NCBI RefSeq assembly: GCF_004361855.1
Contig: NZ_SNWQ01000025.1
Coordinates: 1 to 64,000 of the forward strand
Origin: Kribbella caucasensis
Lineage (GTDB): Bacteria > Actinomycetota > Actinomycetes > Propionibacteriales > Kribbellaceae
DNA: 64,000 nt
Direction of reading: 5' to 3'
This document shows, in pieces, positions 44,393-61,512 of the stretch. Both the position numbers and the translations under genes were made by a program. The notes below the pieces were generated by a model. It was not told the origin of the DNA. It worked only from the letters and a program-made list of their open reading frames with translations, and searched no databases. Position 1 is the stretch's first letter. Each line of letters begins with the position of its first letter.

Positions 44393-44454
44393 CTAGGGGT
44401 GTGGAGGCAGTCGATGGTGAACGCGCGTTGAGCCTCTGCGCTCTGATTTCGGCT

Positions 44455-44664: not shown

Positions 44665-44961
44665 AGGCCAGATATTCGGCGGCTTCAGGTGATGCGGGCG
44701 CCGGCGAAGGCTGCGCAGGGCCGTCCAGCGCCACGGCGAGCATCGGGACGTCGACCTCCGCCGCCGCGTGCAGCTGCTGCCGGGTGTGCTCGAAGAGCGT
44801 AGGTCGGCGTCTGCGGAGCTCAAACCTGGCTGTCACTGCCGCCTTGTCACCGAAGGAGGCAGGAACGACAGCGCAGTCGAAATCCAGCTTGAGTACGAGG
44901 TACGGCTTTGGCGCGTCGTCGTACTGGTAGCAGTTCGTGCGGACAACGGCGCTTACCACGC
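44663..44961 (-). pseudogene. Short unidentified ORF, probably a remnant
   Basis: Ends with TAG at 44665-44663. About 100 residues of good coding character include TNCYQYDDAPKPYLVLKLDF, PASFGDKAAVTARFELRRRR and LFEHTRQQLHAAAEVDVPML. A GTG at about 44961 could start it, but no ribosome binding site is evident. No domain is recognised. Its stop touches the end of hairpin-repeat copy 4. Confidence 0.35.
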
Positions 44962-45067
44962 CGCTGGCGACCCCAGCCGCTCCCAGCTGAGCTGATTGCT
45001 CCGGGCCACGATCGGGCGCCGGGCGAGTATCGTGACAGAGCGTGGCGGGAGCAGTGGAGGTCGGGTC

Positions 45068-45838
45068 GTGGAGCTGGGCGGCGCGGTGGTGTTGGTGACC
45101 GGCGGGTCGGCCGGGATCGGGCGTGCTGTTTGTCTGGAGCTCGCGGTGGCGGGGGCTGCGGTCGTGGTGCATGGGCGCGACGGGCGGCGTACGCAGGATG
45201 TTGCGGACCAGGTGAACGGCGTCGCGGTGCTGGCCGACCTGCGTCAGAACGACGCTGTGCAGGCTCTCGCCGGGCAGGCTCTGGCTGCGCATGGTCGGGT
45301 GGATGTGCTGGTGGCAAACGCCGGGCTCGGGTGGTCCGGGCCGTTCGTTGAGATGAGCGACCAGGAGATCGCGGAGTTGATCACCGTGGATCTCGTCGCC
45401 ACCATGCGACTGGCTCGGTTGCTGTTGCCGGGGATGGTCGAACGTCGTACCGGCTGTCTCCTGCTGGTGGCCTCGGTCGCGGGGCGAACCGGCGTTGCGG
45501 GGGAGGCGGTCTACGCGGCGGCGAAGGCGGGCCTGGATGCGTTCGCGGAGAGTCTGCGGCTGGAGCTGACTGGTAGGGGTGTCCAGGTCGGCGTCGTCGT
45601 TCCCGCTGCGGTCTCGACCGGCTTCTTCGACCGGCGCGGTCGCGCCTACGACCGGCGCGTACCCCGACCTGTGAAGCCTGAGACGGTCGCGCGTGCCATC
45701 GTCCGGGCGATCGAACAGGACCGGGCCGAGACCTGGATACCGCGCTGGATCCGGCTCGCTGCCGTCGTACGGGTGGTGTTCCCGGGCGGTTACCGGCGGC
45801 TTGCCGCCCGCTTCGGAGAGTCGATCCGGTCTGGGTGA
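45068..45838 (+). CDS. Short-chain dehydrogenase/reductase
   Basis: A 256-residue classical SDR from GTG 45068 with GGAGG seven bases upstream. It has the cofactor motif VLVTGGSAGIGRAVCLEL, structural VLVANAGLG, and catalytic Ser (LLLVASVAGRTG) with YAAAK (Tyr near residue 161). The C-terminal RRLAARFGESI tail suits acyl- or lipid-linked substrates. It lies 12 bases before the PAP2-acyltransferase gene, suggesting a joint role in lipid metabolism. The substrate is unknown. Confidence 0.9.
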   Translation: MELGGAVVLVTGGSAGIGRAVCLELAVAGAAVVVHGRDGRRTQDVADQVNGVAVLADLRQNDAVQALAGQALAAHGRVDVLVANAGLGWSGPFVEMSDQEIAELITVDLVATMRLARLLLPGMVERRTGCLLLVASVAGRTGVAGEAVYAAAKAGLDAFAESLRLELTGRGVQVGVVVPAAVSTGFFDRRGRAYDRRVPRPVKPETVARAIVRAIEQDRAETWIPRWIRLAAVVRVVFPGGYRRLAARFGESIRSG

Positions 45839-45850
45839 TCCGGATCCAGG

Positions 45851-47842
45851 GTGTGCTATGAAAAGTGCGTGGCCGTCGACGACGGAGGATCGATACAAAG
45901 GTTCAGGGTTTGGCGCCAGGTGGTGCTCGGTCTGGCGCTGTTCGGCGTCTACCTGCTCGTCGACCGGCCCGGATCGACCAGGCAGGCGACGGCAGACCGT
46001 CACGGACGCGACCTCTACGCGCTGGAGCAGCGCCTCCACCTGGACATCGAGCGGCCGCTGAACGACTGGCTCGCTCCGCACAAGGTTCTGTCCACGCTCG
46101 CGAACTACGGGTACGCCTTCACCTACATCATCGGCGCGTTCGCCCTGCTCGTCTGGATCCTGGTACGGCGCCCCGACGCCTTCCGCCAAGCCCGCGACTC
46201 GTTCGTCGTCCTCAACGTGATCGCCATCGCCTGCTTTGTACTCTACCCTGTGACGCCGCCCCGTCTGCTGCCCGAGCTCGGGCTCGTCGATACCGTTGCC
46301 CAGGGCAATGCATGGTGGTCGGAGCTGGTCGACCACGCCAACCAGTTGGCGGCGATGCCATCCCTGCACGTCAGCTGGGCGGTGTGGGTCAGCATGGTCC
46401 TGTTCCGGCTGGGGCGCGCCTGGGTGCAGGTGGTGAGCGGCATCCATGTGATAGTGACCGTTCTGGTCGTCTTTGCGACGGCCAACCACTACGTGCTGGA
46501 TGTCGTTGCCGCCGTCGTACTGGTCGCGCTGTCAGTCGTGATGGCGAATGGTTGGCACGATCGCGTCGCCCGCCCGGGGGTGGTTGTCCCGTCGCATGAC
46601 GCCTTCTTCCTCCATGTCGAGACCGCTGCCGCGCCTCAGCATGTCGGTGGGCTGGTCGTGTTCGAGCCGAGTGATGGCGATGCGTTGTCGGTCGAGCGCG
46701 TGACAGAGCTGGTGAAAGGTGAGCTCGACCTATTGCCCCGGTTCCGCCAGCGGCTGGGGCCTGCGTCGCGCTGGCGCCGTCAGCGCTGGATCGACGTCGC
46801 CGAGATCGACTGGCCGCTACACATCAGCGATCGTCACTCGGCGGACGGCCCGGCCGGCCTACGGCGGATCGTCGCAGAGTTGGCCGAGACGCCGATGGCA
46901 AGGGATCGCCCGATGTGGCGGATCGTGATGGTCCGCGAGGTGGCGCCCGGGGTGTCGGCGATGATCCTGCTCCTGCACCATGCCGTCGCGGACGGTATCG
47001 GCACCGTGATCCAGGCGCTGAACCTGCTCCGTCCGCGGATCGAGCTGCTCGGCGTGCGCGGTCCGGCGCCGCGCCGCGCACAGTTGCTTGGAGCAACGAT
47101 CACGGGGCTGGCCCAGCTGGCCACCGACGGCGGAGCGGGCGCGCATCTCGACTGCGCGTCGACGCGACGGGAGTTCGCCACCGCCGATCTAGAGCTGGCC
47201 GCCGTACGACGTGCCGCGTCCAGCCGGGGTGTCCGGGTGACCGATCTCGTCCTCGGCCTGATCGCGGACGCGGTCGCCGCTACCCATCCTGACGTCGCCA
47301 CCCGGCTTCGCGGCCGGATGCGGGTCGCGGTGCCGCTGATGGTGCGCGACCCCGGTGCGGCCGCGGAGACCAACGCGACCGCGGCCGTGATGGTCGACAT
47401 ACCGCTGGACGGCCGCCCGTTCGAGGAGTTGCTCGCCGAGATCAGCCGTCGCACCGCGCGCCTGAGGACGCCGAGCCGGGCCGTGGCCTCGCGGTTCGTG
47501 ATGGCGACCGGGCTGCGCGCGTTGCCGGAGCCGTCGGCCGGATGGTTCGCGCGGACCGTCTACGGACGCCGCTTCTTCCACGCCATCGTGTCGAACATGC
47601 CCGGCTCGACGCAGTCCCTGTCGATGGACGGGGTCCCGATTGCGTCCGTTTACCCGATCTTGCCGCTGGCGCCCGGGTCGCCGCTCGCGGTGGGCGCCCT
47701 GAGCTGGGCCGGCTCGCTCGGGATCGGTCTGGCCACCGATCCCGCGGTATTGGACGCAGGTGTTCTGGCCGCGCGGATCGAACAGGTCCTCGGCGTCTCA
47801 CCGGAACGGCCACACGAGCGCGAGGAAGAGTCGCGCGCGTGA
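45851..47842 (+). CDS. Fusion of PAP2-type membrane phosphatase and WS/DGAT acyltransferase
   Basis: 663 residues. The N-terminal part (about 1-230) has several membrane helices and the PAP2_3 (inositol phosphorylceramide-synthase-like) catalytic motifs MPSLHVSWAVWVSM near residue 170 and ANHYVLDVVAAVVL near 211. The C-terminal part (about 245-655) is a wax-ester synthase/diacylglycerol acyltransferase with active site LLLHHAVADGIGTV near residue 375. It could dephosphorylate a lipid phosphate and acylate the product in one chain. The GTG at 45851 is uncertain; GTG 45869 is an alternative. The 3' end overlaps the convergent regulator by 45 bases. Confidence 0.85.
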   Translation: MCYEKCVAVDDGGSIQRFRVWRQVVLGLALFGVYLLVDRPGSTRQATADRHGRDLYALEQRLHLDIERPLNDWLAPHKVLSTLANYGYAFTYIIGAFALLVWILVRRPDAFRQARDSFVVLNVIAIACFVLYPVTPPRLLPELGLVDTVAQGNAWWSELVDHANQLAAMPSLHVSWAVWVSMVLFRLGRAWVQVVSGIHVIVTVLVVFATANHYVLDVVAAVVLVALSVVMANGWHDRVARPGVVVPSHDAFFLHVETAAAPQHVGGLVVFEPSDGDALSVERVTELVKGELDLLPRFRQRLGPASRWRRQRWIDVAEIDWPLHISDRHSADGPAGLRRIVAELAETPMARDRPMWRIVMVREVAPGVSAMILLLHHAVADGIGTVIQALNLLRPRIELLGVRGPAPRRAQLLGATITGLAQLATDGGAGAHLDCASTRREFATADLELAAVRRAASSRGVRVTDLVLGLIADAVAATHPDVATRLRGRMRVAVPLMVRDPGAAAETNATAAVMVDIPLDGRPFEELLAEISRRTARLRTPSRAVASRFVMATGLRALPEPSAGWFARTVYGRRFFHAIVSNMPGSTQSLSMDGVPIASVYPILPLAPGSPLAVGALSWAGSLGIGLATDPAVLDAGVLAARIEQVLGVSPERPHEREEESRA

Positions 47843-48982
47843 CCGCGGCGAGTCCAGCTGATCGCCGTACCGTTCCCGCAGCTGGGCGACCCGGTAGCGC
47901 ACGGTCTGCGGGTGGATGTGCAGCTCCTCGGCGATCGCCGTACGGTCGCCCATGTGCCGCAGCCACGCGGTCAGCGTCTCGATCAGCCGCGCCCGCGCTC
48001 CGGTCGGGAGGTCGTCGAGCGGCGCGAGCAGCTGGTCGCGCAGGAACCCCATCAGGCGCTCGTCGCGATAGACGATGATCGTGTCGAGATGCTCGTCGGC
48101 GAACACCGGTTCGTCGGTCAGGATGCCCTGTTGCTTGAGCCGTACGGCGATCTGCGCGATCGCGACGCTTCGCGGCAGGTGCTCCAGGGCCACGGTGTGG
48201 CCGACCACGGCATTGGCGCCCCGGAGTGCGCGGCGGAGCTGGTCCCGGCGGCCCGGCAGCCCGGGGTCGGGGACGATGGTGCCGGACAGTTGCTCGTGCC
48301 GCACGGGCAGGGATCCCGCATCCACGTGGGCCAGCACGCGCCGGGCGACGTCGGTGTTTGCGTCCACCAGTACGACAGCCCCGGTCGCGGGGATCGGCCA
48401 GTTGGCCCGGGCGGCGGCCTCGCGGATCGCGTTCATGCTCGAGCGATCTGAGAGCAGCAGCTCGGCCAGCTCCTCACGGTTGCGCTCCCGAGCCGACGCG
48501 TCCTCGCTCTGCTCCAGGACATAGCCGCGCGCGGATGCCGAGGAGAGCTGGTTGACGAAGTCGAACACCGCCTCGGCGAGCGCCGCCAGGACACCTGGCC
48601 GGACCCCGAGTGCCAGCGCCGTGTCCGAGACGTGCCGCCAGGCGGTGCGGGCGCCGAGCTGGTACGCGGTCAGCAGGCGGGTGAGGTCCTGACCGGCCTG
48701 CCACTGGCGGCGGCCGATCTGCTCGAACACGATCTGGATCGTCTGCGCGCCCTCGAGACTGTCGTCTCGCGACGCCGACCGGCCGTGCTCGGCCATGTCG
48801 AGGAGTCGGTGTATGAACAGCTCGGCGGCTTCCCGCATACCGTGCGGATTGTGTTCGAGGAACGCGGCGTACTCGGGCATACCGTCGGCGAGCAGGTCCC
48901 GGACCTCGGCCAGCAGCTCCGGCAGACGGTTGTCGAGGGCAAGCTCCAGTCTCGCCCGGCCCTGCGCCGCGTCGGTGCCCAT
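47798..48982 (-). CDS. PucR-family transcriptional regulator with RsbRD_N-like N-terminus
   Basis: 394 residues. A helical N-terminal domain resembles RsbRD_N (LLAEVRDLLADGMPEYAAFL onward), a central region resembles the degenerate GGDEF of CdaR/PucR proteins, and the C-terminal PucR helix-turn-helix is clear (TAIAEELHIHPQTVRYRVAQ). ATG 48982 follows a G-rich ribosome binding site. It is divergent from the hopanoid operon (176-base gap) and convergent with the fusion acyltransferase, so it may regulate either. This is inference. Confidence 0.85.
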   Translation of the reverse strand: MGTDAAQGRARLELALDNRLPELLAEVRDLLADGMPEYAAFLEHNPHGMREAAELFIHRLLDMAEHGRSASRDDSLEGAQTIQIVFEQIGRRQWQAGQDLTRLLTAYQLGARTAWRHVSDTALALGVRPGVLAALAEAVFDFVNQLSSASARGYVLEQSEDASARERNREELAELLLSDRSSMNAIREAAARANWPIPATGAVVLVDANTDVARRVLAHVDAGSLPVRHEQLSGTIVPDPGLPGRRDQLRRALRGANAVVGHTVALEHLPRSVAIAQIAVRLKQQGILTDEPVFADEHLDTIIVYRDERLMGFLRDQLLAPLDDLPTGARARLIETLTAWLRHMGDRTAIAEELHIHPQTVRYRVAQLRERYGDQLDSPRSRARLFLALVWPFR

Positions 48983-49158
48983 CGCCCGCCCCCCGTAGTG
49001 CTCTAGACAGCCCTGTCGCGCCCTGGGACGTCCTGCCGCTCGTCCAGCTCTGAACGCCCAGCCGCGCTCTGGATTGTACGGTCGTGACAATTTTCGGGTC
49101 CAGGAATCACTCCGGCAGCGGCAGACCTGGCGATTGGGACGGACCGAAGATTGCTGAC

Positions 49159-50037
49159 ATGGCCAGCTCGCGTCACCGGCCGCCCAGAACTGCTCCCTCG
49201 TCAATCGACGAGGGAGCGTTGCGCACCCGCGAGAACGCCGAGAATTTCCCCGTCGCGCTGCGATTCCTGCCGCGTCAGCATCGCGACGACCTGCACGCGA
49301 TCTACGCCTACGCCCGGATGGTCGACGAGATCGGCGACGCGTACACCGGCGACCGCACGGCCCGGCTGCGTGAGGTGGCGGCGGACCTCGGCACGATCTG
49401 GTCAGGCGGTCAGCCGTCGGACGCCATAGTCCGGAAGCTGGCCCTGACAGTGCGCGAGCGGGGGATGTCAGCCGAGCCGTTCGAGCGGCTGATCGAGGCG
49501 AACCTGCTGGACCAGGTGGTGTCGCGGTACGAGACCTTCGACGACCTGCGCGGGTACTGCGCTCTGTCCGCCGACCCGGTCGGCCGGATGGTGCTGGAGA
49601 TCTTTGGACAGGCAACCCCGGAGGCCATCGCGCGATCCGACCAGGTCTGCACGGCGTTGCAACTGCTCGAACACTGGCAGGACGTCGGCGAGGACCGGCG
49701 CGCCGGTCGCGTGTACCTACCGCAGGAAGATCTCCGTCGGTACGGCGTCAGTGAGCGTGACCTGGATCAGTCGAGCGCGGGCCGACGGCTCCGCGAGTTG
49801 ATGCGGTTCGAGATCGAACGGGCCGCCGGACTGCTCGGTGAAGGGACGGCGATCGTGCAGCACCTGCAGGGATGGGGGCGGATCAGCGTGGCCGGCTTCG
49901 TCGCCGGGGGACAGGCGACTGTGTCGGCGTTGAGGCGCGCCGACGGCGATGTGCTTGACCGGTCCGCCCGGCCGTCGCAGTTGACCACAGCGATCCGGAT
50001 CCTCGGCCTGCTGGCGAGCCGGCGGTCGGTGCGATGA
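49159..50037 (+). CDS. hpnC: Hydroxysqualene synthase HpnC
   Basis: A 292-residue trans-isoprenyl synthase that converts presqualene diphosphate to hydroxysqualene. The [20 protein letters not shown] start, the first acidic motif [10 protein letters not shown] and the second [14 protein letters not shown] are characteristic. GTG 49084 is an alternative start; neither candidate has a strong ribosome binding site, and ATG 49159 better fits family length. It is first in an eight-gene overlapping operon; its stop overlaps hpnD (ATGA). Confidence 0.9.
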
Positions 50038-50894
50038 GCACGATCGAGCAGGCGTACGCCACCTGCGAGCAGATCACCCGGACCGAGGCAGGCAACTTCT
50101 ACTACGGCATCCGCCTGCTGCCGCCATCCAAACGATCCGCCCTGTGCGCGGTCTACGCGCTTGCGCGCCGGATCGACGACATCGGCGACGGCGATGGCGC
50201 GACCGCTGACAAGGAGACGGCCCTCGCCGCGGTCCGCAAGGACCTCGGCAGGCTGGACGAGAGCAGCGACCCGGTGTTCACCGCGGTGAACGACGCCGCA
50301 CGCCGGTTCCCGGTGCCGCTCACCGCGTTCGAGGAGCTCATCGACGGTGTCCAGATGGACCTGGGCGAGGTCAGGATCGCCGACTTCGACGAGCTTGTCG
50401 TGTACTGCCGCCACGTCGCCGGCTCCGTAGGCCGCCTGTGCCTGTCGATCTTCGGCAGCAGCACAACGGACGCGAGGACTTCGCTGTACGCCGACCAACT
50501 CGGGGTCGCCCTGCAGCAGACCAACATCCTGCGCGACATCCGCGAAGACCTCGGCAACGGCCGCGTCTACCTCCCACAGGACGAGCTCGACCGGTACGGC
50601 GTGGAACTGCGTGTCGACGACCTCGGCGCGCTGGACGACCCAGCGGGCAGGCTGGCCGCCTACATCCGGTACGCCGCCGGGCGCGCGGGCGACTGGTATT
50701 CGCTCGGCCTGCGGCTCGTCCCACACCTCGACCGGCGCAGCGCGGCATGCTGCCGGGCAATGGCCGGGATCTACCACCATCTGCTCGACCGTATCGCTGC
50801 CGACCCGGTCCTCGTCTACGACCAAAGGTTGTCGCTCAGCGTCGCCCAGAAGGCGCGCGTCGCCGTGACCGCCCTGGCCGGGGGAGGACGATGA
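50034..50894 (+). CDS. hpnD: Presqualene diphosphate synthase HpnD
   Basis: A 286-residue enzyme that joins two farnesyl diphosphates into presqualene diphosphate. Acidic motifs [15 protein letters not shown] (near residue 40) and [18 protein letters not shown] (near residue 165) bind the Mg-diphosphates. Its ATG overlaps the hpnC stop and its stop overlaps hpnE, so translation is coupled on both sides. Confidence 0.94.
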
Positions 50895-52231
50895 CCGCCC
50901 GGCGCGTCGCAGTCGTCGGGGGTGGCCTGGCCGGCCTCACCGCGGCACTGCGATGCGCCGACGAAGGCTGTGCTGTCACGCTGTTCGAAGCACGACCCCG
51001 GCTCGGTGGGCTCACTCACTCGTTCCAGCGCGACGGACTGTGGATCGACAACGGCCAACATGTGTTCCTGCGGTGCTGCACGGCGTATCAGGGATTTCTG
51101 GAGCGGCTGGGCGTCGCTGACCGGGTCACCGTGCAGGACCGGCTCGACGTACCGGTCCGCAGTGAGCTCGATGCGCGAGCCGGGCGACTTCGCCGTACGG
51201 GATTGCCGGCGCCACTCCACCTCGGGTCTACCTTGGCGCGCTATCGATGGTTGAGCCCGACGGCTCAGGCGCGAGTGGTGCGCGCCGCTTTGGCGCTTGG
51301 TCGGGTGGATCGCACAGATCCCGAGGTCGACCGTCGGTCCTTCGGTGATTGGCTCACCGCGCACGGTCAGGATCGGCGGGCCATCGAGGCCGTCTGGGAC
51401 CTGATCGGCATCGCGACGCTGAACGCTCCGGCTGAGCGTGCGTCCCTGGCACTCGCCGCGACGGTCTTCCAGGTCGGCCTGCTGGAGTCAGCCGCCGCAG
51501 CCGACATCGGTTGGTCCCTGGTACCGCTCCAGGAGTTGCACGGCGACGCGGCCTTCCGTGCGCTGACCGCGGCGGGGGTGACCGTGCGAACCCGGTGCAA
51601 GGTCCGTGACGTCGTACCGGCCGGTGAGGGCTGGACGGTGGACGGTGGCGCCTTCAACGACGTCGTACTCGCCGTTCCTCCAGCGGCCGTGGAGACACTC
51701 ACCCCGCCAGGCGCGATTGAGCTGGAGCCGGGCTGGGCAGAGGAGCTCGGTAGCACGCCGATCGTCAACCTCCACGTCATCTACGACCGGGTCGTGCTCG
51801 ACGAGCCGTTCTTCGCGGCGGTCGACAGCCCGCTGCAGTGGGTGTTCGACCGCTCCAGCCAGGCTGGACTCAGTCAGGGGCAGTACATCGCGGTGTCGCT
51901 GTCGGCGGCGGACGACATCGTCGATACACCGGTCTCGGCGCTGCGCGACCGGTTCCTTCCACACCTGGAACGTCTGCTGCGGGTCTCCGCCGAGACCCGT
52001 GTACTGGAGTTCTTCGTCACCCGGGAACGGCAGGCCACCTTCCGGCAGCGGCCGGGCACCGTCGGCCTGCGTGCGTCGGCGCGTACGGCGCTACCCGGGC
52101 TCTACCTGGCCGGTGCTTGGACCGACACCGGCTGGCCCGCAACCATGGAGGGCGCTGTCCGCAGCGGAGCGGCCGCAGTGGCCGCGCTGCTCCAACGGTG
52201 CCCAGCTGAACGTCGGGAGGCAGTGGTATGA
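50891..52231 (+). CDS. hpnE: Hydroxysqualene dehydroxylase HpnE
   Basis: A 446-residue FAD-dependent amine-oxidase-fold enzyme that reduces hydroxysqualene to squalene. It has the N-terminal dinucleotide motif [20 protein letters not shown] followed by LGGLTHSF, the conserved [14 protein letters not shown], and the C-terminal FAD contact [20 protein letters not shown]. It completes the HpnC-HpnD-HpnE route to squalene. It overlaps both neighbours by four bases. Confidence 0.94.
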
Positions 52232-53241
52232 CGATCACCGCGGAAACCCTCGACCGCAGTCGCGGCCTGGTCGCGCCGGCCCTGCGCCAGGCCGTCGAGC
52301 GCCTCGATCCCTTCACTCGGCTGGTCGTTTCGTACCACCTCGGCTGGTCGGACGAGCACGGGAGGCCGACCGAGGCCAACCCGGGCAAGAGCCTGCGACC
52401 CGCGCTCGCCCTGCTCGCGGCCGAAGCGGTCACGGGCGTGCCCGAACCGGGATTGCCGGGCGCAGTGGCGGTCGAGCTCGTCCACAACTTCTCCCTGCTG
52501 CACGACGATCTGATGGATCGCGACACCGAGCGCCGCCACCGCCGGACCGTCTGGGCTGTCTGGGGCGACGCGACCGCCGTACTGGCTGGTGACGCGCTCC
52601 TTTCCCTTGCCCACGAGGTGTTGACCGAGAGCGAATCGCCGTACCGGCAAGCAGCCGGCCAGGCAGTGGCGATCGCCACTCGGGAGCTGATTCGCGGGCA
52701 GGTGCTGGATCTCGCCTTCGAGCAGCGGAACGACGTGACGCTGGACGAGTGCCTCGAGATGGCGGCCGGCAAGACCGGCGCCCTGCTCGGGGTCAGCGCG
52801 GCGATCGGCGCGATTCTGGCCGGGGCGCCGCAGGCGGTGGTCGCCGGGCTGTCCAGGTTCGGTGCCGAGCTGGGGATGGCGTTCCAGCTCGTCGACGACC
52901 TGCTCGGGATCTGGGGATCACCTGTGGTCACGGGCAAGCCGGTGTTCGCCGATCTGGTCGCGCGAAAGAAGACGTTGCCGGTGACCTGGTCGCTCGATCA
53001 CGGTGGCGAGGCCGGGCGGGAGCTGGCCGCGTGGCTGCGCCGCGACGGCGGTCTGACGGAGGACGAGCTCCGGTACGCCGCTCAGCTGATCGAGCGTGCC
53101 GGTGGTCGGGACTGGGCAACTCAGGAAGCGCGGGACCGCATCGGCCTGGCCGAGCATGCTCTCGACCAAGCAGGGCTCGACGACGTCGTCCGGAACCGGC
53201 TCGGTCAGGTCGCCCGCTTCGTGATCGAGAGGCAGTCATGA
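52228..53241 (+). CDS. Polyprenyl (farnesyl-type) diphosphate synthase
   Basis: A 337-residue E-type prenyltransferase. The first aspartate-rich motif is LLHDDLMDRD (near residue 92) and the second is FQLVDDLLGIWG, ending DDLLG rather than the canonical DDxxD. GKSLRPALALLAAEA near residue 52 binds isopentenyl diphosphate. It probably supplies farnesyl diphosphate for hpnD. It is coupled to hpnE upstream and shc downstream by four-base overlaps. Confidence 0.9.
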   Translation: MTITAETLDRSRGLVAPALRQAVERLDPFTRLVVSYHLGWSDEHGRPTEANPGKSLRPALALLAAEAVTGVPEPGLPGAVAVELVHNFSLLHDDLMDRDTERRHRRTVWAVWGDATAVLAGDALLSLAHEVLTESESPYRQAAGQAVAIATRELIRGQVLDLAFEQRNDVTLDECLEMAAGKTGALLGVSAAIGAILAGAPQAVVAGLSRFGAELGMAFQLVDDLLGIWGSPVVTGKPVFADLVARKKTLPVTWSLDHGGEAGRELAAWLRRDGGLTEDELRYAAQLIERAGGRDWATQEARDRIGLAEHALDQAGLDDVVRNRLGQVARFVIERQS

Positions 53242-55172
53242 CGGCTGGGGAACGCATCGACCCACCTGCCGCAATCGGTACGGCGCCTGACGCGGTTGGT
53301 GCGGCGGCCGACGCGCGGGCGGCCCTGGGCGCGGCGGTGGAACACCTGCGGGGGCAGCAGCACGAGGACGGCTGGTGGAAGGGTCTGCTGGCCACCAACG
53401 TGACGATGGACGCCGAGGACCTGATGCTCCGGGCGTTCCTCGGCATCGCGACGCAGCGGACGAACGAGGAGACGGCCCGCTGGATCCGTTCCCAGCAACG
53501 GGTGGACGGGTCATGGGCGACGTTCCATGGTGGGCCAGGCGACCTGTCGACCACTGTCGAGGCGTGGGTCGCCCTGCGGTTCGCCGGTGATCAGCCCGAT
53601 GCGCGGCACATGCGCCAGGCCGCCGAGTTCGTCCGGTCCAAGGGTGGGGTCGAGCGGGCTCGCGTGTTCAGCCATATCTGGCTCGCGCTGTTCGGGCTGT
53701 GGAGCTGGGACGACTGTCCTGCGCTGCCGCCGGAGATCATGTACCTGCCGGCGTGGGCGCCTCTCAACATCTACAACTGGGGTTGCTGGGCTCGTCAGAC
53801 CATCGTGCCGCTCACCATCGTCAGCGCCCTCGAGCCCGTGCATCCCGTGGAGTTCGGCATTGCAGAGCTGAAGACCGGGGCACCGCCGCCGCCACGACGA
53901 CCGGCGTACAGCATCGCTGGGTTCTTCCAGCGGCTCGACCCTGTGCTGCACAGCTACGGGCGTCGGCCGCTCAAACACCTGCGGCAGAAGGCGATGCGCC
54001 TCGCCGTCGAGTGGATCCTGGCGCGTCAGGAAGCCGACGGCGGCTGGGGCGGCATCCAGCCGCCGTGGGTGTATTCGCTCATCGCGCTGCACCGGATGGG
54101 GTACTCGCTCGACCACCCGGCGATGCGTGCCGGGATCGAAGGGCTCGAAGGCTTCACTGTCCAGGCCTCCTCGTCCGACGGACCTGTGCGGTGGCTGGAG
54201 GCGTGCCAGTCGCCGGTGTGGGACACCGGGCTCGCACTCGCCGCCCTGCTCGACGCAGGCGTTCCGGCGGACGATCCGGCCGTCCTCAGAGCGACCGACT
54301 GGTTGCTGGACGAGCAGATTCTGGCCGGTGGTGACTTGCAAGTGCGCCGTCCCAGGCTGCCGCCGGGCGGGTGGGCCTTCGAGTTTGCCAACGACAACTA
54401 TCCCGACACCGACGACACCGCCGAGATCGTGTTGGCCCTGCGCCGGGTGGATCACCCGGATGCCGCGCGGGTGCGGGCGGCGATCGATCGTGCGGTCGTG
54501 TGGACGACCGGGATGCAGTCCGGTGACGGCGGGTGGGGCGCGTTTGACGCGGACAACACCCACACGCTGGCGAACGCGTTGCCGTTCTGCGATTTCGGTG
54601 CCGTCATCGATCCACCGTCGGCCGACGTCACCGCACATGTGGTCGAAATGCTCGCCGCCGAAGGCCGTACGGCCGAGGAGCCGTGCCGGCACGGCGTACG
54701 GTGGCTGCTCGACGCGCAGGAGGCTGACGGATCGTGGTTCGGTCGCTGGGGTGCCAATCACGTCTATGGCACCGGCGCTGTCGTGCCGGCGCTGATTGCG
54801 GTGGGGATACCGGCCGGCGCGCCGGCGGTGCGAGCAGCCGTGAGGTGGCTCGAGGATCACCAGAACGATGACGGAGGTTGGGGCGAGGACCTGCGCTCGT
54901 ACGACGATCCGGCCTGGATCGGTCGAGGTGAGTCGACCGCCTCACAGACCGCCTGGGCGCTGCTCGCTCTGCTTGCCGCCGGTGAAGACACCGCCTCGGT
55001 CGACCAGGGTGTGGAGTACCTCGTCCGCACTCAGCTGGCGGACGGCGGCTGGGACGAGGAGCTGTACACCGGCACGGGCTTTCCGGGCGACTTCTACATC
55101 AACTACGAGATCTACCGGCTCGTCTTCCCGATCTGGGCGCTCGGCCGCTTCGTCGCGCGGAGTACCCGATGA
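53238..55172 (+). CDS. shc: Squalene-hopene cyclase
   Basis: A 644-residue membrane-associated triterpene cyclase that folds squalene into hopene/hopanol. The catalytic DxDD motif is in YPDTDDTAEIVLAL near residue 391. Several QW repeats are visible (ARQEADGGWGGI, GMQSGDGGWGAF, DHQNDDGGWGED, TQLADGGWDEE). Length matches bacterial SHC. Start ATG 53238 overlaps the prenyl synthase stop, and the stop overlaps the next ATG. Confidence 0.96.
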   Translation: MTAGERIDPPAAIGTAPDAVGAAADARAALGAAVEHLRGQQHEDGWWKGLLATNVTMDAEDLMLRAFLGIATQRTNEETARWIRSQQRVDGSWATFHGGPGDLSTTVEAWVALRFAGDQPDARHMRQAAEFVRSKGGVERARVFSHIWLALFGLWSWDDCPALPPEIMYLPAWAPLNIYNWGCWARQTIVPLTIVSALEPVHPVEFGIAELKTGAPPPPRRPAYSIAGFFQRLDPVLHSYGRRPLKHLRQKAMRLAVEWILARQEADGGWGGIQPPWVYSLIALHRMGYSLDHPAMRAGIEGLEGFTVQASSSDGPVRWLEACQSPVWDTGLALAALLDAGVPADDPAVLRATDWLLDEQILAGGDLQVRRPRLPPGGWAFEFANDNYPDTDDTAEIVLALRRVDHPDAARVRAAIDRAVVWTTGMQSGDGGWGAFDADNTHTLANALPFCDFGAVIDPPSADVTAHVVEMLAAEGRTAEEPCRHGVRWLLDAQEADGSWFGRWGANHVYGTGAVVPALIAVGIPAGAPAVRAAVRWLEDHQNDDGGWGEDLRSYDDPAWIGRGESTASQTAWALLALLAAGEDTASVDQGVEYLVRTQLADGGWDEELYTGTGFPGDFYINYEIYRLVFPIWALGRFVARSTR

Positions 55173-56686
55173 CCGGAATCGTCAGTACGCCGTTGCTGTC
55201 CGAGTGGCTCGCACTCCGCGACCGGCTCACGGCCGACGTTCTCCGCACCGGACGCTCCTCGGACGGCGGACTCGGGCAGACCGGAGAACCGGAGGAGAAG
55301 GGTGAGGCGGAGCTGGCCGGACCGCCCGGCAGGCGGCCGGTGCTGGTGGCCGGGGTGGCCGGTGGTCTCGGCAACGAACTCCGGCCCGGCGACCTGGTCG
55401 TCGCGGACGAGATCCGGGGTGGCGCCGAGCCGATTCCAAGCTATGCGTCCCCGTTCCTCGTGGGTTCGTTGCGGCGTGCCGGCCTGCGGGTACACCACGG
55501 GCCCGTCGAGACGACCCCGCGGATCGTCGATGCGCCGGATGCCCGCCGTACGCTCGGAGTGACCGGCGCTCTCGCTGTCGACACGGAGTCGGCCCTGCTG
55601 GCCGCTGCCGCACCACCAGGACAGGCAGCCGTGATCCGCGCCGTCGTCGACACGGCGGGCCACCGGCTACTCCGTCCAGGGACGCTGGTTCGCGGGCCGA
55701 AAGCCTTGTGGGCCTTGCGTCGCGCGGCGCCGGTTATCGATGCCTGGGCCGCCGCGACCGATGATCGCGAGGTCGTCCTCGCGGGTCCGCGGTCCTTCTG
55801 CGCGGGCGTCGAGCGCGCCATCGAGATCGTGGAACGTGCGCTGGCGAAGTTCGGGCCGCCGGTCTACGTACGCCGTCAGATCGTGCACAACATCCACGTT
55901 GTCAGTGAGCTGGAGCGGCGCGGCGCAGTCTTCGTCGAGGAGGTCGCAGAGGTGCCCGAGGGCAGCATCACCGTGCTCGCCGCCCACGGCGTCGCCCCGC
56001 AGGTCCGTACCGACGCCGCCGCACGCAACCTCCGGCTGATCGACGCCACCTGCCCGCTGGTCGCCAAGGTGCACAGCGAAGTACGCCGCTTTGTTGCTCG
56101 CGGCAACACCGTGTTCCTGATCGGTCATCGCGACCACGAGGAGGTCGTCGGCACTCAAGGTGAGGCGCCCGGTCAGGTGATCGTCGTGACCGATCCCGAC
56201 GAGGCCGGGCGGGTGAGCGTCGCCGATCCGCGACGAGTCTCCTACGTCATGCAAACCACCCTCGCCGTCGACGAGGCCGAGCAGACGGCGACCGTTCTGC
56301 GTGACCGGTTCCCCGCGCTGACCGGTCCGCGCAGCGACGACATCTGCTACGCCACCACGAACCGGCAGCAGGCGGTCCGCGCCGTCGCGCGAGACACCGA
56401 CCTTGTCCTCGTGCTTGGATCTGCGAACTCGTCCAACTCCCATCGGCTCGCGGAGGTCGCCGTGGCCGAGGGGGTCAAGGCGCATCTCGTCGACGACGCG
56501 AGCGCCGTAGACCTGCACTGGCTGCGCGGCGTACGACGTATCGGCGTCACCGCCGGAGCATCCGCACCACCCCGGCTCGTTGACGACCTGGTGCGGTGTC
56601 TGTCCGGCCTCGGCCAGGTGACTGTCACCGAGATCAGCGTCGTCGACGAGCACATCCGATTCACTCTGCCCCGGGAGGTGAGCTGA
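55169..56686 (+). CDS. Fusion of HpnG-like nucleoside phosphorylase and IspH (HMBPP reductase)
   Basis: 505 residues. The first about 185 resemble HpnG/purine nucleoside phosphorylases (VLVAGVAGGLGNELRPGDLV; AVDTESALLAAA). HpnG is assigned to adenosylhopane side-chain processing. From about residue 190 onward it is a full IspH, the 4Fe-4S enzyme making IPP/DMAPP from HMBPP. The three cluster cysteines are in SFCAGVERAIEI (about 210), DATCPLVAKVH (about 294) and DDICYATTNRQ (about 391). IspH substrate motifs AAHGVAPQV and GHRDHEEVVG are present. There is no frameshift at the junction. It overlaps the shc stop and is followed by hpnH. Confidence 0.9.
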   Translation: MTGIVSTPLLSEWLALRDRLTADVLRTGRSSDGGLGQTGEPEEKGEAELAGPPGRRPVLVAGVAGGLGNELRPGDLVVADEIRGGAEPIPSYASPFLVGSLRRAGLRVHHGPVETTPRIVDAPDARRTLGVTGALAVDTESALLAAAAPPGQAAVIRAVVDTAGHRLLRPGTLVRGPKALWALRRAAPVIDAWAAATDDREVVLAGPRSFCAGVERAIEIVERALAKFGPPVYVRRQIVHNIHVVSELERRGAVFVEEVAEVPEGSITVLAAHGVAPQVRTDAAARNLRLIDATCPLVAKVHSEVRRFVARGNTVFLIGHRDHEEVVGTQGEAPGQVIVVTDPDEAGRVSVADPRRVSYVMQTTLAVDEAEQTATVLRDRFPALTGPRSDDICYATTNRQQAVRAVARDTDLVLVLGSANSSNSHRLAEVAVAEGVKAHLVDDASAVDLHWLRGVRRIGVTAGASAPPRLVDDLVRCLSGLGQVTVTEISVVDEHIRFTLPREVS

Positions 56687-56688
56687 CC

Positions 56689-57693
56689 GTGGCCATGCCG
56701 CTGCGTCAGTCGATCCGCCTCGGTAGTTTTCTGCTCAAGCAGAAGCTGCTGCGACGGGAGAAGTTCGCACTGCTGGTCGAACTCGAGCCGCTGTTCGCCT
56801 GCAATCTCGCCTGCGCCGGCTGCGGCAAGATCCAGCACCCCGCCTCGATCCTGAAGCAGCGGATGCCGGTCGAGCAGGCGGTCGCCGCGATCGAGGAGAG
56901 CGGCGCCCCGATGGTGTCGATCGCCGGCGGCGAGCCGTTGATGCACCAGCAGATCGACGAGATCGTCCGGCAACTGCTGGCCCGGCGGAAGATCGTCTTC
57001 CTGTGCACCAACGCGTTGCTGCTGCCCAAGCATCTGCACAAGTTCACGCCGCACCGCAACTTCGCCTGGATGGTGCACATCGACGGGTTGCGCGAGCGCC
57101 ACGACGCGTCGGTGTGCAAGGACGGTGTCTTCGACCAGGCTGTCGCCGCCATCAAACAGGCCCAGGCCGCCGGGTTCCGGGTGATGACCAACACCACCTT
57201 CTTCGACACCGACACGCCGCAGGACGTCATCGACGTACTGGACTATCTCAACGACGAGCTCGGCGTCGACAACATGCAGATCTCGCCCGGGTTCGCGTAC
57301 GAGAAGGCGCCGGACCAGGAGCACTGGCTCGGTCCCGAGGAGACCCGGCAGCTGTTCGCGAAGGCCTTCGCCGGTGGGCGCCGGAAGAAGTGGCGGCTGA
57401 ACCACTCGCCGCTGTTCCTGGACTTCCTCGAGGGCAAGGTCGACTTCTCCTGCACGGCGTGGGCGATTCCGTCGTACTCGCTCAAGGGCTGGCAGCGGCC
57501 GTGCTACCTGATGGATGACGAGTACGTCGCGACGTACAAGGAACTGCTCGAGGACACGGACTGGAACGCGTACGGTCGCGGCAAGGATCCGCGGTGCGCG
57601 AACTGTATGGCGCACTGCGGCTACGAGCCGACGGCTGTGGTGGCGACCATGCGGTCACTGCGGGAGACCATCCGCGCCGCGGTCGGATCATGA
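56689..57693 (+). CDS. hpnH: Adenosyl-hopene transferase HpnH (radical SAM)
   Basis: A 334-residue radical SAM enzyme that adds the adenosyl group to the hopene side chain. The cluster motif is FACNLACAGCGK (CX3CX2C, near residue 40), followed by VSIAGGEPLMHQQIDE (SAM contacts) and a C-terminal DUF3463 cysteine region (RCANCMAHCGYEPTAV). GTG 56689 gives the usual MAMPLRQSIRLG start with GGGAGG at workable spacing; ATG 56695 is an alternative. Two bases separate it from the fusion gene, and it overlaps dxs. Confidence 0.95.
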   Translation: MAMPLRQSIRLGSFLLKQKLLRREKFALLVELEPLFACNLACAGCGKIQHPASILKQRMPVEQAVAAIEESGAPMVSIAGGEPLMHQQIDEIVRQLLARRKIVFLCTNALLLPKHLHKFTPHRNFAWMVHIDGLRERHDASVCKDGVFDQAVAAIKQAQAAGFRVMTNTTFFDTDTPQDVIDVLDYLNDELGVDNMQISPGFAYEKAPDQEHWLGPEETRQLFAKAFAGGRRKKWRLNHSPLFLDFLEGKVDFSCTAWAIPSYSLKGWQRPCYLMDDEYVATYKELLEDTDWNAYGRGKDPRCANCMAHCGYEPTAVVATMRSLRETIRAAVGS

Positions 57694-59471
57694 ACCGGTC
57701 GCGCGGGAGCGTCGACGATCGCCCCCGCCCGGAGACCCGGCTGGACACTCTGGCCTCACCGGCCGATCTCCAGCGGTTGCCGGCTGCTGCTCTGCCGGGC
57801 CTGGCCGACGAGATCCGTGCACAGCTCGTCAGCCGGGTCACGCGGACAGGCGGGCATCTGGGGCCGAACCTGGGCGTCGTCGAGCTGACGATCGCACTGC
57901 ATCGGGTCTTCAGCTCGCCGCGAGACGTGATCGTCTGGGACACCGGGCACCAGGCGTACGTGCACAAGATGCTCACCGGTCGGCTTGATCGCTTCGACAC
58001 CTTGCGACAGGCGAGCGGGCTCTCCGGGTACCCGAGCCGAGCCGAGAGTGAGCACGACGTCATCGAGAACTCGCACGCCTCGACCGCGCTCTCGTACGCC
58101 GACGGTCTGGCGAAGGGGTTCCAGCTCACCGGCTCTCTCGAGCGACGGGTTGTCGCGGTCGTGGGTGATGGTGCGATGACCGGTGGGATGTGCTGGGAGG
58201 CGCTCAACAACATCGCGGCGGCGCCGGACCGGCCGGTCGTCATCGTGCTCAACGACAACGGGCGATCGTACGAACCGACCGTCGGATCGCTGGCCGTCCA
58301 GCTGCGGGCGTTGCGGACAGGGACGGCATGGGGCAACGTCTTCGAGCAGCTCGGTTTGGCATACCTCGGCCCTGTCGACGGCCACGACACCATGGCCCTG
58401 GAGACGGCGTTGCGGACTGCCGCTCTGCTCCAGCACCCGGTCGTCGTCCATTGCATCACCCGCAAAGGTGCCGGCCATACCCCCGCCGAGCTGGATGAAG
58501 CCGACCACCTCCACACCGTCAACCCGACCCCTACGGCGGCCATGAGCCAGGCGCACGGACCCGCCTGGACGGACGTGTTCGGCGATGAGTTGGTCGCGAT
58601 CGCAGGTGAGCGGACGGATGTAGTCGCGGTGACGGCAGCGATGATGCGGCCGACCGGGCTGTTTCCGTTGGCCTGCCGGTATCCGGAGCGCGTGTACGAC
58701 GTCGGGATCGCCGAGCAGCACGCGGTGACGTCAGCTGTCGGGTTGGCGGCTGCGGGGCTGCATCCTGTGGTGGCGATCTACTCGACATTCCTCAACCGCG
58801 CTTTCGACCAGGTACTGATGGACGCGGCGCTCCACCGGGCGCCGATCACCTTCGTGCTCGACCGTGCCGGTATCACCGGTCCGGACGGGCCGTCTCACCA
58901 TGGAATGTGGGATTTGGCTCTGTTCGGGTTGGTTCCCGGCATGCGGGTCGCGGCGCCTCGGGACGCGCAGCAGTTACGTGTGTTGCTACGCGCCTGCATC
59001 GCTCACGAGGTTGGGCCTACCATGCTTCGGTTTCCACGAGGGCGTAGCGGAGTTGGCATCCGCGCCCGGGGAACCGTCGGCGCCGCAGAGTTGCTGACGG
59101 AGGGCCGGTCCAAGGTGCTGCTCGTGCCGGTCGGTCCGCTGGCGGGCGCCGCGCTGGAGGCTTCCCGTCGCCTCCGCGAGCTGGGAATCCGCGCGACGGT
59201 CGTCGATCCCCGCTGGATCAACCCAGTCGATCCCGAGCTTCTCCGCTACGCCGGCGAGCACCGCCTGGTAGTGACGATCGAGGACAGCGCACTGCCGGGA
59301 GGGTTCGGGGACGCCCTGGCGCGGGCGCTTCGCCGCACGACGTCACGCCCTCAGCTCATCACCCTCGGCCTGCCCGGCGACTTCATCGCGGCGGGGGAGC
59401 GCGCGGACCTTCTCCACGCGCACGGACTCGATGCCGAAGGCATCACCGAGGCCGTCGTCGCCGGTGTGTGA
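57690..59471 (+). CDS. dxs: 1-deoxy-D-xylulose-5-phosphate synthase
   Basis: A 593-residue thiamine-diphosphate enzyme that makes DXP from pyruvate and glyceraldehyde-3-phosphate, the first MEP-pathway step. It has the N-terminal HLGPNLGVVELTIALHRVF, the TPP motif VVGDGAMTGGMCWEALNN, and the pyrimidine-domain catalytic Glu in YDVGIAEQHAVTSA. The loop normally reading MSISPNVG here reads RSYEPTVG, suggesting an isozyme dedicated to this operon. It is slightly shorter than housekeeping DXS. It is last in the hopanoid operon and coupled to hpnH. Confidence 0.95.
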   Translation: MNRSRGSVDDRPRPETRLDTLASPADLQRLPAAALPGLADEIRAQLVSRVTRTGGHLGPNLGVVELTIALHRVFSSPRDVIVWDTGHQAYVHKMLTGRLDRFDTLRQASGLSGYPSRAESEHDVIENSHASTALSYADGLAKGFQLTGSLERRVVAVVGDGAMTGGMCWEALNNIAAAPDRPVVIVLNDNGRSYEPTVGSLAVQLRALRTGTAWGNVFEQLGLAYLGPVDGHDTMALETALRTAALLQHPVVVHCITRKGAGHTPAELDEADHLHTVNPTPTAAMSQAHGPAWTDVFGDELVAIAGERTDVVAVTAAMMRPTGLFPLACRYPERVYDVGIAEQHAVTSAVGLAAAGLHPVVAIYSTFLNRAFDQVLMDAALHRAPITFVLDRAGITGPDGPSHHGMWDLALFGLVPGMRVAAPRDAQQLRVLLRACIAHEVGPTMLRFPRGRSGVGIRARGTVGAAELLTEGRSKVLLVPVGPLAGAALEASRRLRELGIRATVVDPRWINPVDPELLRYAGEHRLVVTIEDSALPGGFGDALARALRRTTSRPQLITLGLPGDFIAAGERADLLHAHGLDAEGITEAVVAGV

Positions 59472-59621
59472 GTCCAACGCATGCCCTCGACGCCTCCGCG
59501 ACCGGCCTTGCCGCACCTGATGTGCCGGTGCGAGACCTACTGTCAGCGCAGCCAGCCCGAGTGGGCTGTACCGCCCAGCCTGCGCGTCCTCCGTCGGGCA
59601 ACCATCTCTTCCCCCGGTTGG

Positions 59622-59649
59622 CTTGTGCGCGCCTCTCGGCGCGCACAAG
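59622..59649. terminator. Perfect hairpin, likely bidirectional terminator
   Basis: CTTGTGCGCGCC (59622-59633), loop TCTC and GGCGCGCACAAG (59638-59649) form a perfect 12-bp stem. It lies between the end of dxs and the end of the convergent AMIN-like gene. There is no U-run, which is common for actinobacterial terminators. The remaining gap 59472-59853 shows no gene. Confidence 0.6.
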
Positions 59650-59853
59650 TGGTGTGCTTCTACTGAGCTTGATGCGCCGGCAGCGACGGAAGTTGCGTCC
59701 TTCGCCGAAGAGCATCGGCGGTGGTCGGTTCAAGGGATGACTCCCGCTACCAACAGAGCAGCCGCCATCGCTACTCGCGCACTTCGCTGCCGAGTGGACA
59801 TGCCGAACCTCTCGTTGGCCCGACTGGTGCGCAGTGCTTTCACGGCGCCGCCC

Positions 59854-60459
59854 TTACCAACGGTGGGCGACGTCGACGACGACGCGGCTCGTGGTGCCTG
59901 GGCCGGTGAGGGTGAAGACGCGGAACGGGAGTCGGGCGCGGACGCCGAGTCCGATCGTGGTCTCGCCCTCGAAGCTGCCTGCGCTGACGACTTGCCGGAA
60001 GGTCCGGTAGCCGCGCACGTCGGTCAGTTCGTCGTAGTTCGCCGGGTCATAGGTATAGCGGTTGGTGTCGTCGTAGGACGGTGCCAGCAGGACGATCTCC
60101 AGCTTGGCGCCGCCGCGGAGCGGAATGAGCTTGCCCTCTCCCACGGTGGAGATGTCCTGCACGTACTGCACGCGGAACCAGGACGGCTTGCCGTCGATGT
60201 CGAACACGACCCGGTCGAAACAGGCGTGCTGTCCGGTCCGGACGTTGGTCAGGTGACCTACGCCCTGGAATGTGCTTGCCTCAGGCAACGAACCCCAGCC
60301 GGTCGGGCACGTGGCGGCAGCGGTCGTGACTGCTGCTGCCTTGGACGGGCCGGCGAGCGCCGGTACAGCGACCGCTCCCGCCGGTACTGCGGCTACTGCG
60401 AGCACCGCGAGTGCGGTGCGGATCGGTCTGCGGATGTTGATGGTGGGAATACATTTCAC
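59854..60459 (-). CDS. Secreted AMIN-like domain protein
   Basis: A 201-residue exported protein. The signal peptide (RTALAVLAVAAVPAGAVAVP) probably ends at an ALA-G site near residue 36. The mature domain has CPTGWGSLPEAS, HACFDRVVFDIDGKPSWFRV, VQYVQDISTVGEG and a closing TLTGPGTTSRVVVDVAHRW. This pattern fits the actinobacterial AMIN-like family, often cell-surface proteins. Two cysteines may form a disulfide. No enzymatic motif is present. It is convergent with the hopanoid operon. Confidence 0.75.
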   Translation of the reverse strand: MKCIPTINIRRPIRTALAVLAVAAVPAGAVAVPALAGPSKAAAVTTAAATCPTGWGSLPEASTFQGVGHLTNVRTGQHACFDRVVFDIDGKPSWFRVQYVQDISTVGEGKLIPLRGGAKLEIVLLAPSYDDTNRYTYDPANYDELTDVRGYRTFRQVVSAGSFEGETTIGLGVRARLPFRVFTLTGPGTTSRVVVDVAHRW

Positions 60460-60558
60460 GATGCCCCCCTTAAGGACACCTGTTAGATGCGCCCCGCAGG
60501 CCCGAAGTTGTCGATCGGCGTACTGAACTCGGTCAGGAGGACGGCGGGCACCAGTTGT

Positions 60559-61512
60559 CTAGGTGACCGGGAGGACGCGGCGCCAGCCCTCGAAGACGAG
60601 GGTGGGATTCATGCCGACCGACAGGTAGAGGCCGAGGGCCGGAGTCGGGTTGTTGGTGTCGACGAGCAGGATCGTGCCCGCCCGTCCCGCGGCTGCGTCC
60701 AGGGCGAAGGCGTCGCGCAGCAGGAACTTCGCCAGACCACGCCCCCGGTACTCCTCGAGGACACCGAGCATGGCGATGTGGCCGCAATTGTCGGACTGGA
60801 TGAACGAGTCGCTGCAGTCACGCAACGCGACCGCCTTTCCGTCGACCTCGAGCAGCGTGAGCTGGGACCAATCGATGGTGGACCGAGCGTCGCGCTCCGC
60901 GATCCATTCGTCGTGCGGGCGAGGGACGAAGCCGAACTGGCCTCGGAAGGAACCGAGCAGGACTTCGTGAGCAGTCGATCGGGTGGCATCATCGAAGGCG
61001 CCGCGACGGACCACCACGCCCCGGGGTGTCTGCGGAGCGGCGACTGGCTCGGAGTGGTCGATCCACATCCGGTTGTACGTCGTACGGGCGGCGAAGGCGT
61101 GGTCGGCCAGCAGAGCGCGTAGTGGCCCGTCGGCGTGGTAGGCAAAGGCATCCACGGTGATCTCGGCGTGGCCGCCCAGGCGTCCCATCTCCAGTGCGCG
61201 CTGCATCGTCCGCTCGTACAGCCAGGCGGCGACCGACGGATGCTGAGAGGTCACTTCGATGCCGATCATCTCGCGATCGCCCTTGCCGAACGTGGTCCCA
61301 TACCCGACCGGCAGGCCGTCCGCGGCGAGCACCAACCAGCCGTCGGTCATCCGGTCAAAGCCGGGCTCGACGATGCAGTCGGCGACGTCGCCCAGCGTGC
61401 AGTCGGCGAAACCGACCATCGCTGTGTTGTAGGCCGAGATGAGATCGAAGATCCCCTCGGCATCTGTCGGCTCAGGACGCCGGACGGTGTAGCGATCCGC
61501 CAGAGAATCCAG
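60559..61512 (-). CDS. Tandem GNAT-family acetyltransferase
   Basis: About 317 residues with two GNAT domains. The first starts at YTVRRPEPTDAEGIFDLISA and is degenerate. The second has the acetyl-CoA loop LGVLEEYRGRGLAKFLLRDA and a typical GLYLSVGMNPTLVFEGWRRV end. No ATG, GTG or TTG fits before the first domain. CTG 61512 has GGAGG at ideal spacing and would start directly before the domain. A more distant ATG at 61734 would overlap the TetR gene by 86 bases, so CTG is preferred. The substrate is unknown. Confidence 0.75.
   Translation of the reverse strand: MDSLADRYTVRRPEPTDAEGIFDLISAYNTAMVGFADCTLGDVADCIVEPGFDRMTDGWLVLAADGLPVGYGTTFGKGDREMIGIEVTSQHPSVAAWLYERTMQRALEMGRLGGHAEITVDAFAYHADGPLRALLADHAFAARTTYNRMWIDHSEPVAAPQTPRGVVVRRGAFDDATRSTAHEVLLGSFRGQFGFVPRPHDEWIAERDARSTIDWSQLTLLEVDGKAVALRDCSDSFIQSDNCGHIAMLGVLEEYRGRGLAKFLLRDAFALDAAAGRAGTILLVDTNNPTPALGLYLSVGMNPTLVFEGWRRVLPVT

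Follow-up and report, generated by a model that had tools for sequence, protein, structure and literature searches.

Actinobacterial hopanoid operons carry a fusion of an HpnG-like domain with IspH

Introduction

The component enzymes HpnG and IspH are both known; their combination in one protein is described here. In the available part of a 2025 paper (PMC12583986), HpnG is given as a putative phosphorylase, and the enzyme that converts ribosylhopane to bacteriohopanetetrol is not established. Fusions within the methylerythritol phosphate (MEP) pathway have precedents, since IspDF fusions join nonconsecutive steps according to the accessible portion of PMC13001223. Here we analyze a gene in the window, a 64,000-nucleotide stretch of Kribbella caucasensis (assembly GCF_004361855.1, contig NZ_SNWQ01000025.1, positions 1 to 64,000, forward strand), that encodes an HpnG-like domain and IspH in a single polypeptide within a hopanoid operon. 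The analysis makes it probable that the product is a bifunctional hopanoid-operon enzyme, in which an HpnG nucleosidase is joined to an IspH paralogue dedicated to hopanoid synthesis.

Related systems in the literature touch on this arrangement at several points. For Acidobacteria, a single mention in the available text of PMC5462960 places ispH in a cluster with shc and hpnH, and another passage gives ispA for that cluster. In Frankia alni, FRAAL1433, annotated as 4-hydroxy-3-methylbut-2-enyl diphosphate (HMBPP) reductase, and FRAAL1432, a squalene-hopene cyclase (SHC), are listed in a table of the proteins with the strongest up-regulation during nitrogen fixation (PMC10252897, accessible part). 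Prenyl transferases are reported as cargo of family 2B encapsulins in the accessible part of PMC8346489, a paper in which the terms “diphosphate reductase”, “MEP” and “hopanoid” do not occur. No description of the fusion, or of the shortened stub reported below, was found in the literature searched, which held few subscription papers and was available in part; the terms searched brought up no mention of it in the accessible parts of PMC4447401 and PMC10745605.

Results and Discussion

Architecture and conservation of the fusion protein

The fusion gene and its domains are as follows.

55169-56686, forward strand: HpnG-IspH fusion gene, 505 residues, defined by translation of the open reading frame (ORF) and by Pfam and NCBIfam matches
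55169-55759, forward strand: HpnG-like domain, residues 1-197, a putative nucleosidase with the fold of methylthioadenosine/S-adenosylhomocysteine (MTA/SAH) nucleosidase (MTAN), with E12, E140 and D161 and a low-confidence insert at residues 33-53
55766-56686, forward strand: IspH domain, residues 200-505, with C211, C295 and C393 and the HMBPP-binding residues

The gene is one unbroken ORF with a single terminal stop, and contains neither a stop nor a frameshift between the domains. Its ATG shares the tetranucleotide ATGA (55169-55172) with the stop of the SHC gene. Its own stop (56684-56686) is separated from the start of HpnH by two bases if that gene begins at GTG 56689, or by eight if it begins at ATG 56695. 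The preliminary description had proposed a single polypeptide with an HpnG-like domain and a full IspH, and the uninterrupted frame with its Pfam and NCBIfam matches agrees with this. The AlphaFold model of the 505-residue protein has a predicted local distance difference test score (pLDDT) of 88.9 and a predicted template modelling score of 0.86, with pLDDT below 50 only at residues 33-53.

The C-terminal half is assigned to IspH with ease. It matches Pfam LYTB (PF02401) at residues 202-478 with 294.2 bits (cut-off 24.5) and NCBIfam TIGR00216 with 291.1 bits (cut-off 187.85), and residues 200-505 of the predicted model superpose on E. coli IspH-HMBPP structures with a Z score of 41 and a root-mean-square deviation of 1.4. 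Positions of the HMBPP pocket were mapped through E. coli IspH numbering, which the accessible part of PMC8837944 supports in part. Seventeen IspH positions were compared across the fused rows, and 15 of them show no variation in 78/78, including the cluster ligands C211, C295 and C393 as well as H240, H273, H323, E325, T363, T364, S421, N423 and S465. The remaining two are V214 (77/78) and S422 (63/78), the latter replaced by alanine in 15 rows and retained in the window protein. The IspH is thus complete with its three cluster cysteines, as had been claimed.

The N-terminal half is more divergent from the available models. Pfam PNP_UDP_1 (PF01048) is matched at residues 58-164 with 33.1 bits (cut-off 25.1). 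NCBIfam TIGR03468 (HpnG) gives 62.1 bits on the fusion protein, under its cut-off of 187.1, and the domain is therefore termed HpnG-like. The model itself seems to be what falls short in this class, because the cut-off is reached in none of the 394 class genomes sampled (at least 95% complete, the window genome included), even those with a standalone HpnG. Decay was considered as a cause of the weak score and rejected, given that standalone actinobacterial HpnG proteins also miss the cut-off and that the residues are conserved.

Structurally, residues 1-197 of the predicted model resemble MTA/SAH nucleosidases (Z about 20), which also rank first in a sequence-profile search of relatives in the PDB; phosphorylases also appear in the sequence and fold lists. 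E140 and D161 align with the ME and RA-SD motifs of MTAN. E12 presumably corresponds to the catalytic Glu12, an assignment made by motif spacing alone against MTAN numbering. Across 77 fused domains E12 is kept in 75, E140 in 75 and D161 in 76, and all three are kept in five of five standalone HpnG proteins. Of the proposed adenosyl-hopane phosphorylase domain, the HpnG-like part is upheld; the label “phosphorylase” is not secured because the nearest solved relatives are MTA/SAH nucleosidases and their Glu12 is retained.

Both domains are under purifying selection. When the three Kribbella copies are compared by YN00, the N-terminal domain has omega values of 0.10-0.15 and IspH of 0.05-0.08; the corresponding NG86 values are 0.15-0.20 and 0.12-0.17. 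In the host genome, the HpnG model scores the fused domain at 64.8 bits and two other places at 37.9 and 33.7 bits; with a profile built from fused domains, the fusion reaches 222.7 bits and a single further match 36.9 bits. Neither search gives a further HpnG-like match above 38 bits.

The hopanoid operon and its host genome

The fusion stands in the order HpnC-HpnD-HpnE-prenyl synthase-SHC-fusion-HpnH-DXS, with genes that overlap or nearly touch. Its neighbours are listed below.

49084-50037, forward strand: HpnC, squalene synthase (TIGR03464, 280.5 bits, cut-off 250.45)
50034-50894, forward strand: HpnD, presqualene diphosphate synthase (TIGR03465, 294.3 bits, cut-off 278.6)
50891-52231, forward strand: HpnE, hydroxysqualene dehydroxylase (TIGR03467, 406 bits, cut-off 283.05; ATG start)
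52228-53241, forward strand: polyprenyl diphosphate synthase (Pfam cut-off only; NF041169, 427.5 bits, cut-off 450)
53238-55172, forward strand: SHC (TIGR01507, 733.7 bits, cut-off 431.1; ATG start)
56689-57693, forward strand: HpnH, adenosylhopane synthase (TIGR03470, 505.4 bits, cut-off 225.05; start at GTG 56689 or ATG 56695)
57690-59471, forward strand: DXS paralogue, first MEP-pathway enzyme (TIGR00204, 542.5 bits, cut-off 465.95; ATG 57690)

HpnC, HpnD, HpnE, SHC, HpnH and DXS all pass their NCBIfam cut-offs, and the location inside a hopanoid operon given by the preliminary description is confirmed. As had also been suggested, a late tailoring step and an isoprenoid precursor step are represented on one polypeptide, with both domains in the 505-residue ORF and all IspH cluster ligands present.

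The host genome (9.46 Mb, 89 contigs) contains a second, standalone IspH on contig C14 and a second DXS on contig C13 (615.1 bits), so that the operon DXS is also an extra copy; one IspG gene is located elsewhere in the genome. The prenyl synthase at 52228-53241 (forward strand) is near the threshold of NF041169, the model for the family 2 encapsulin cargo polyprenyl transferase, and no protein of the host genome exceeds the model cut-off for a family 2B encapsulin shell. About 5 kb 5' of the operon lies a DDE_5 transposase (window 42992-44293, forward strand), which fits a mobile history. A 663-residue ORF at window 45851-47842 (forward strand) combines a PAP2 phosphatase-like domain (residues 54-230) with a wax ester synthase/diacylglycerol acyltransferase domain (249-647), possibly placing consecutive steps of triacylglycerol synthesis in one protein. 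Rfam gave no match at gathering thresholds within 42500-61000.

Distribution of the fusion

We surveyed 80 loci, the matches listed by one search; these and the further loci below are numbered with the prefix L. The full fusion occurs in at least 44 of the 80, 42 found by BLAST and two (L045, L046) by hidden Markov model. It is present in Kribbella, Nocardia, Rhodococcus, Aldersonia, Amycolatopsis, Pseudonocardia, Prauserella, Microtetraspora, Microbispora, Actinomadura, Micromonospora, Dactylosporangium, Modestobacter and Actinopolymorpha. The closest of the listed loci belong to two Kribbella species (84% and 86% identity over the best segment). One locus, L052, appears unfused; its ORF begins at a contig edge, which leaves its fusion state undecided. 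The preliminary description had proposed such a survey of architecture and context, and its outcome agrees with the window: 44 of the 80 listed loci are fused, and SHC accompanies the full fusion in 46 of 47 loci of at least 9 kb.

Within the genus of the window, 15 of 38 genomes carry the fusion, and each of these 15 has another place matching IspH. In the class sample, where a fusion was called from a match of at least 450 bits starting at or before residue 60, it is found in 35 of 394 genomes, each of which has a further IspH match. Of the sampled genomes, 83 contain HpnH, every fusion genome among them. The 48 that are HpnH-positive and lack the fusion comprise 43 from one large-genome, Streptomyces-like genus (g23, which we take to be Streptomyces) and five others; outside that genus, 35 of 40 HpnH-positive genomes are fused. 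The fusion in the window operon is therefore real, while its standing as a peculiarity of the window does not hold. In the three standalone-HpnG operons opened (L144, L145, L146), HpnG adjoins HpnH and no IspH is found there.

Phylogeny and origin

The IspH tree was built from 85 rows, obtained by thinning 127 at 90% identity after a very divergent minus-strand copy of L066 had been dropped from 128. A quick midpoint-rooted tree of all 128 rows was discarded, as it was distorted by this row. Fused, stub-bearing and terpene-linked unfused IspH sequences form one clade (support 100/100), and housekeeping IspH sequences, including the second copy of the host genome, fall outside it. Within the clade, the encapsulin-linked sequences form a subclade of 25 rows (92/75). 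The Kribbella fusion clusters with those of Nocardia, Rhodococcus and Aldersonia (100/98), a grouping that suggests horizontal transfer.

An HpnG-domain tree of 42 rows, comprising the rows of the thinned set with a domain slice and five standalone HpnG proteins, recovers several groups of the IspH tree; many of its forks are weak. Two standalone HpnG proteins (L130, L147) nest within the fused Streptosporangiales group, and IspH has thus probably been lost secondarily from some fusions.

Stub-bearing and unfused relatives

In the encapsulin-linked subclade, 16 proteins have an N-terminal extension that matches part of the HpnG profile with 14.7-31.8 bits, compared with 10.6 bits for the best of 3200 shuffles. 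Profile-profile comparison of this stub with HpnG gives a probability of 97.7 and an E value of 1.6e-12 over 44 columns. The stub is without the catalytic stretch of the HpnG domain. In L044 it is predicted as a compact domain, with block pLDDT of 89-97 over residues 11-110, which indicates that it is not simply debris; its positions V17, A18, C31, A33 and R43 are invariant in 15 of 15 aligned rows. A VIA search with the stub-bearing model placed IspH at ranks 1-8 and returned no nucleosidase among 50 rows, which should not be read as a sign of a new fold.

Genomic context follows the state of the domain. Counts were restricted to loci of at least 9 kb, with the two-copy locus L066 counted as stub. 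SHC is found in 46/47 full-fusion loci, 0/17 stub loci and 0/23 unfused loci; an encapsulin shell is found in 0/47, 13/17 and 13/23 respectively. The sole full-fusion locus without SHC (L021) has HpnH. The four stub loci lacking a shell (L049, L060, L062, L066) have DXS and IspG instead, and ten of the 23 unfused loci are L071, L080 and eight outgroup loci. In three loci examined (L044, L054, L152), the genes near IspH include family 2B shells. The cargo prenyl transferase of L044 scores 476.9 bits (cut-off 450); L152 has no stub, and its cargo-like terpene cyclase reaches 1175 bits, just below the cut-off of 1200. Five genomes of the window's own genus (L152-L156) have a different terpene operon, which encodes two 2B-type encapsulin shells, a terpene cyclase and a prenyl synthase alongside an unfused IspH from the fused clade; IspG is also present in four of the five.

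Loci in which the HpnG substrate is made thus retain the full domain, and in the others it is trimmed, as would be expected of a domain with a catalytic function in hopanoid operons. As a natural control, the stub-bearing and unfused encapsulin-linked branch supports the bifunctional reading. The graded series further suggests that encapsulin terpene operons and hopanoid operons share ancestry.

L066 contains one further observation. Its minus-strand copy (1189-2604) is an IspH paralogue that carries an HpnG stub and has diverged strongly, with best matches of about 39-43% identity in a search of 345 genomes. It keeps the three cysteines, whereas a MAFFT alignment shows several of the residues that bind HMBPP to be replaced (in E. 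coli numbering, H41 to D, H124 to D, E126 to A, T168 to G, N227 to D). It is possibly a 4Fe-4S enzyme with a different substrate.

Interpretation

The bifunctional reading rests on the architecture, context, conservation, selection and phylogeny demonstrated here, and takes both reactions from the families of the domains. The N-terminal domain would be an actinobacterial HpnG, removing adenine from adenosylhopane, the HpnH product, to give ribosylhopane, probably by MTAN-type nucleosidase chemistry. The C-terminal domain would be an active 4Fe-4S HMBPP reductase and an operon-dedicated second copy; together with the adjacent DXS paralogue, it would raise the supply of isopentenyl and dimethylallyl diphosphate during squalene and hopanoid synthesis. 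A single origin of the fusion, in the hopanoid operon of an actinobacterial ancestor, is most likely, and the fusion would fix the co-expression and dosage of both activities. This rationale of dosage and supply is inference only. The two reactions do not follow one another in the pathway, and nothing points to the transfer of an intermediate from one domain to the other.

Several observations weigh against this reading. The host genome has a separate IspH, and the fused copy need not be active for that reason. Catalytic positions of the N-terminal domain are changed in four loci (alanine at 12 in L021 and L024, aspartate at 140 in L045, gaps at 140 and 161 in L046). In place of the conserved TGMGP loop, the three Kribbella copies have TGRSS, and residues 33-53 of the window protein are a low-confidence insert, so that substrate contacts may differ. 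The omega of the N-terminal domain exceeds that of IspH, about twofold by YN00 and 1.1-1.5-fold by NG86. The tree does not resolve the earliest branching among the fused IspH sequences and their clade relatives, so that a single origin is likely rather than proved, and the nesting of L130 and L147 indicates that fusion is not required for HpnG.

The HpnG half may also have a second, non-catalytic role that coexists with catalysis in hopanoid operons. It would act as a mini-domain docking IspH to the polyprenyl synthase or to a terpene-assembly shell, and encapsulin operons would have kept the docking part alone, about 90 residues that contain no active site. We put this forward tentatively, as a possibility on the unlikely side. 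If true, family 2B encapsulin terpene operons took IspH, and perhaps the prenyl synthase, from the hopanoid operon.

It is less plausible still that the N-terminal domain is catalytically dead throughout and merely brings IspH close to other terpene enzymes, in the manner of a scaffold or adaptor, while HpnG activity comes from elsewhere. The invariant positions and confident predicted fold of a stub without catalytic residues make a non-catalytic role plausible, and the TGMGP loop is lost in the Kribbella copies. Against this, the catalytic residues of full-length domains are nearly invariant, none of the loci examined retains the full domain outside a hopanoid operon, and the host genome offers no other HpnG-like match above 38 bits. 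These points, with purifying selection, favour an active domain over a merely structural one, and the choice between activity and assembly left by the preliminary description leans to the former.

A very improbable alternative makes the fused IspH the missing reductase that converts ribosylhopane to bacteriohopanetetrol, directly after HpnG. IspH is already a reductase, the fusion would then link consecutive steps, and the enzyme for this step is not established in the available part of the 2025 paper (PMC12583986). However, fused and housekeeping IspH conserve the residues that bind HMBPP to about the same degree, with only S422 notably variable; the same clade serves encapsulin and terpene loci without SHC; and IspH is absent from the HpnG place in L144, L145 and L146. 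Reduction of a sugar aldehyde is also chemically unlike reductive dehydroxylation. We rejected this role as unlikely, since the pocket is nearly unchanged and the clade is used without hopanoids. The joining of two genes through a sequencing or assembly error, for which no supporting point was found, is of negligible probability and is ruled out, as is chance, by the same fusion in 44 other loci among the 80 listed, from other assemblies and nine named families.

Comparison with known systems

NCBIfam models score this widespread two-enzyme protein as IspH and leave its HpnG half under the cut-off. As a result, hopanoid surveys relying on the cut-off could call HpnG missing in actinobacteria. 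The fusion would tie C5 supply to hopanoid side-chain formation, and the series from the full domain in hopanoid operons to a stub or none in encapsulin operons provides a natural experiment on enzyme fusion and separation.

The standalone HpnG (TIGR03468) of Streptomyces-like operons shares its domain and catalytic residues with the window protein and, like it, lies between SHC and HpnH, whereas the window domain is fused to IspH and reaches 62 bits against a cut-off of 187. With the HMBPP reductase IspH/LytB (TIGR00216), the window protein shares the fold, three cysteines and HMBPP pocket, and it passes the curated cut-off; unlike the housekeeping enzyme, it is a second copy in its genome, is fused at its N-terminus and belongs to a separate clade. 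The fusion of IspH with ribosomal protein S1 (NF000907) likewise joins an MEP-pathway enzyme to another activity, with a different partner. IspDF proteins are also MEP-pathway fusions, whereas the partner of the window IspH acts late in one lipid pathway. The IspH proteins of family 2B encapsulin terpene operons belong to the same clade, and many have a homologous, reduced N-terminal extension; in contrast to the window fusion, they have lost the catalytic part of HpnG and their loci contain no SHC.

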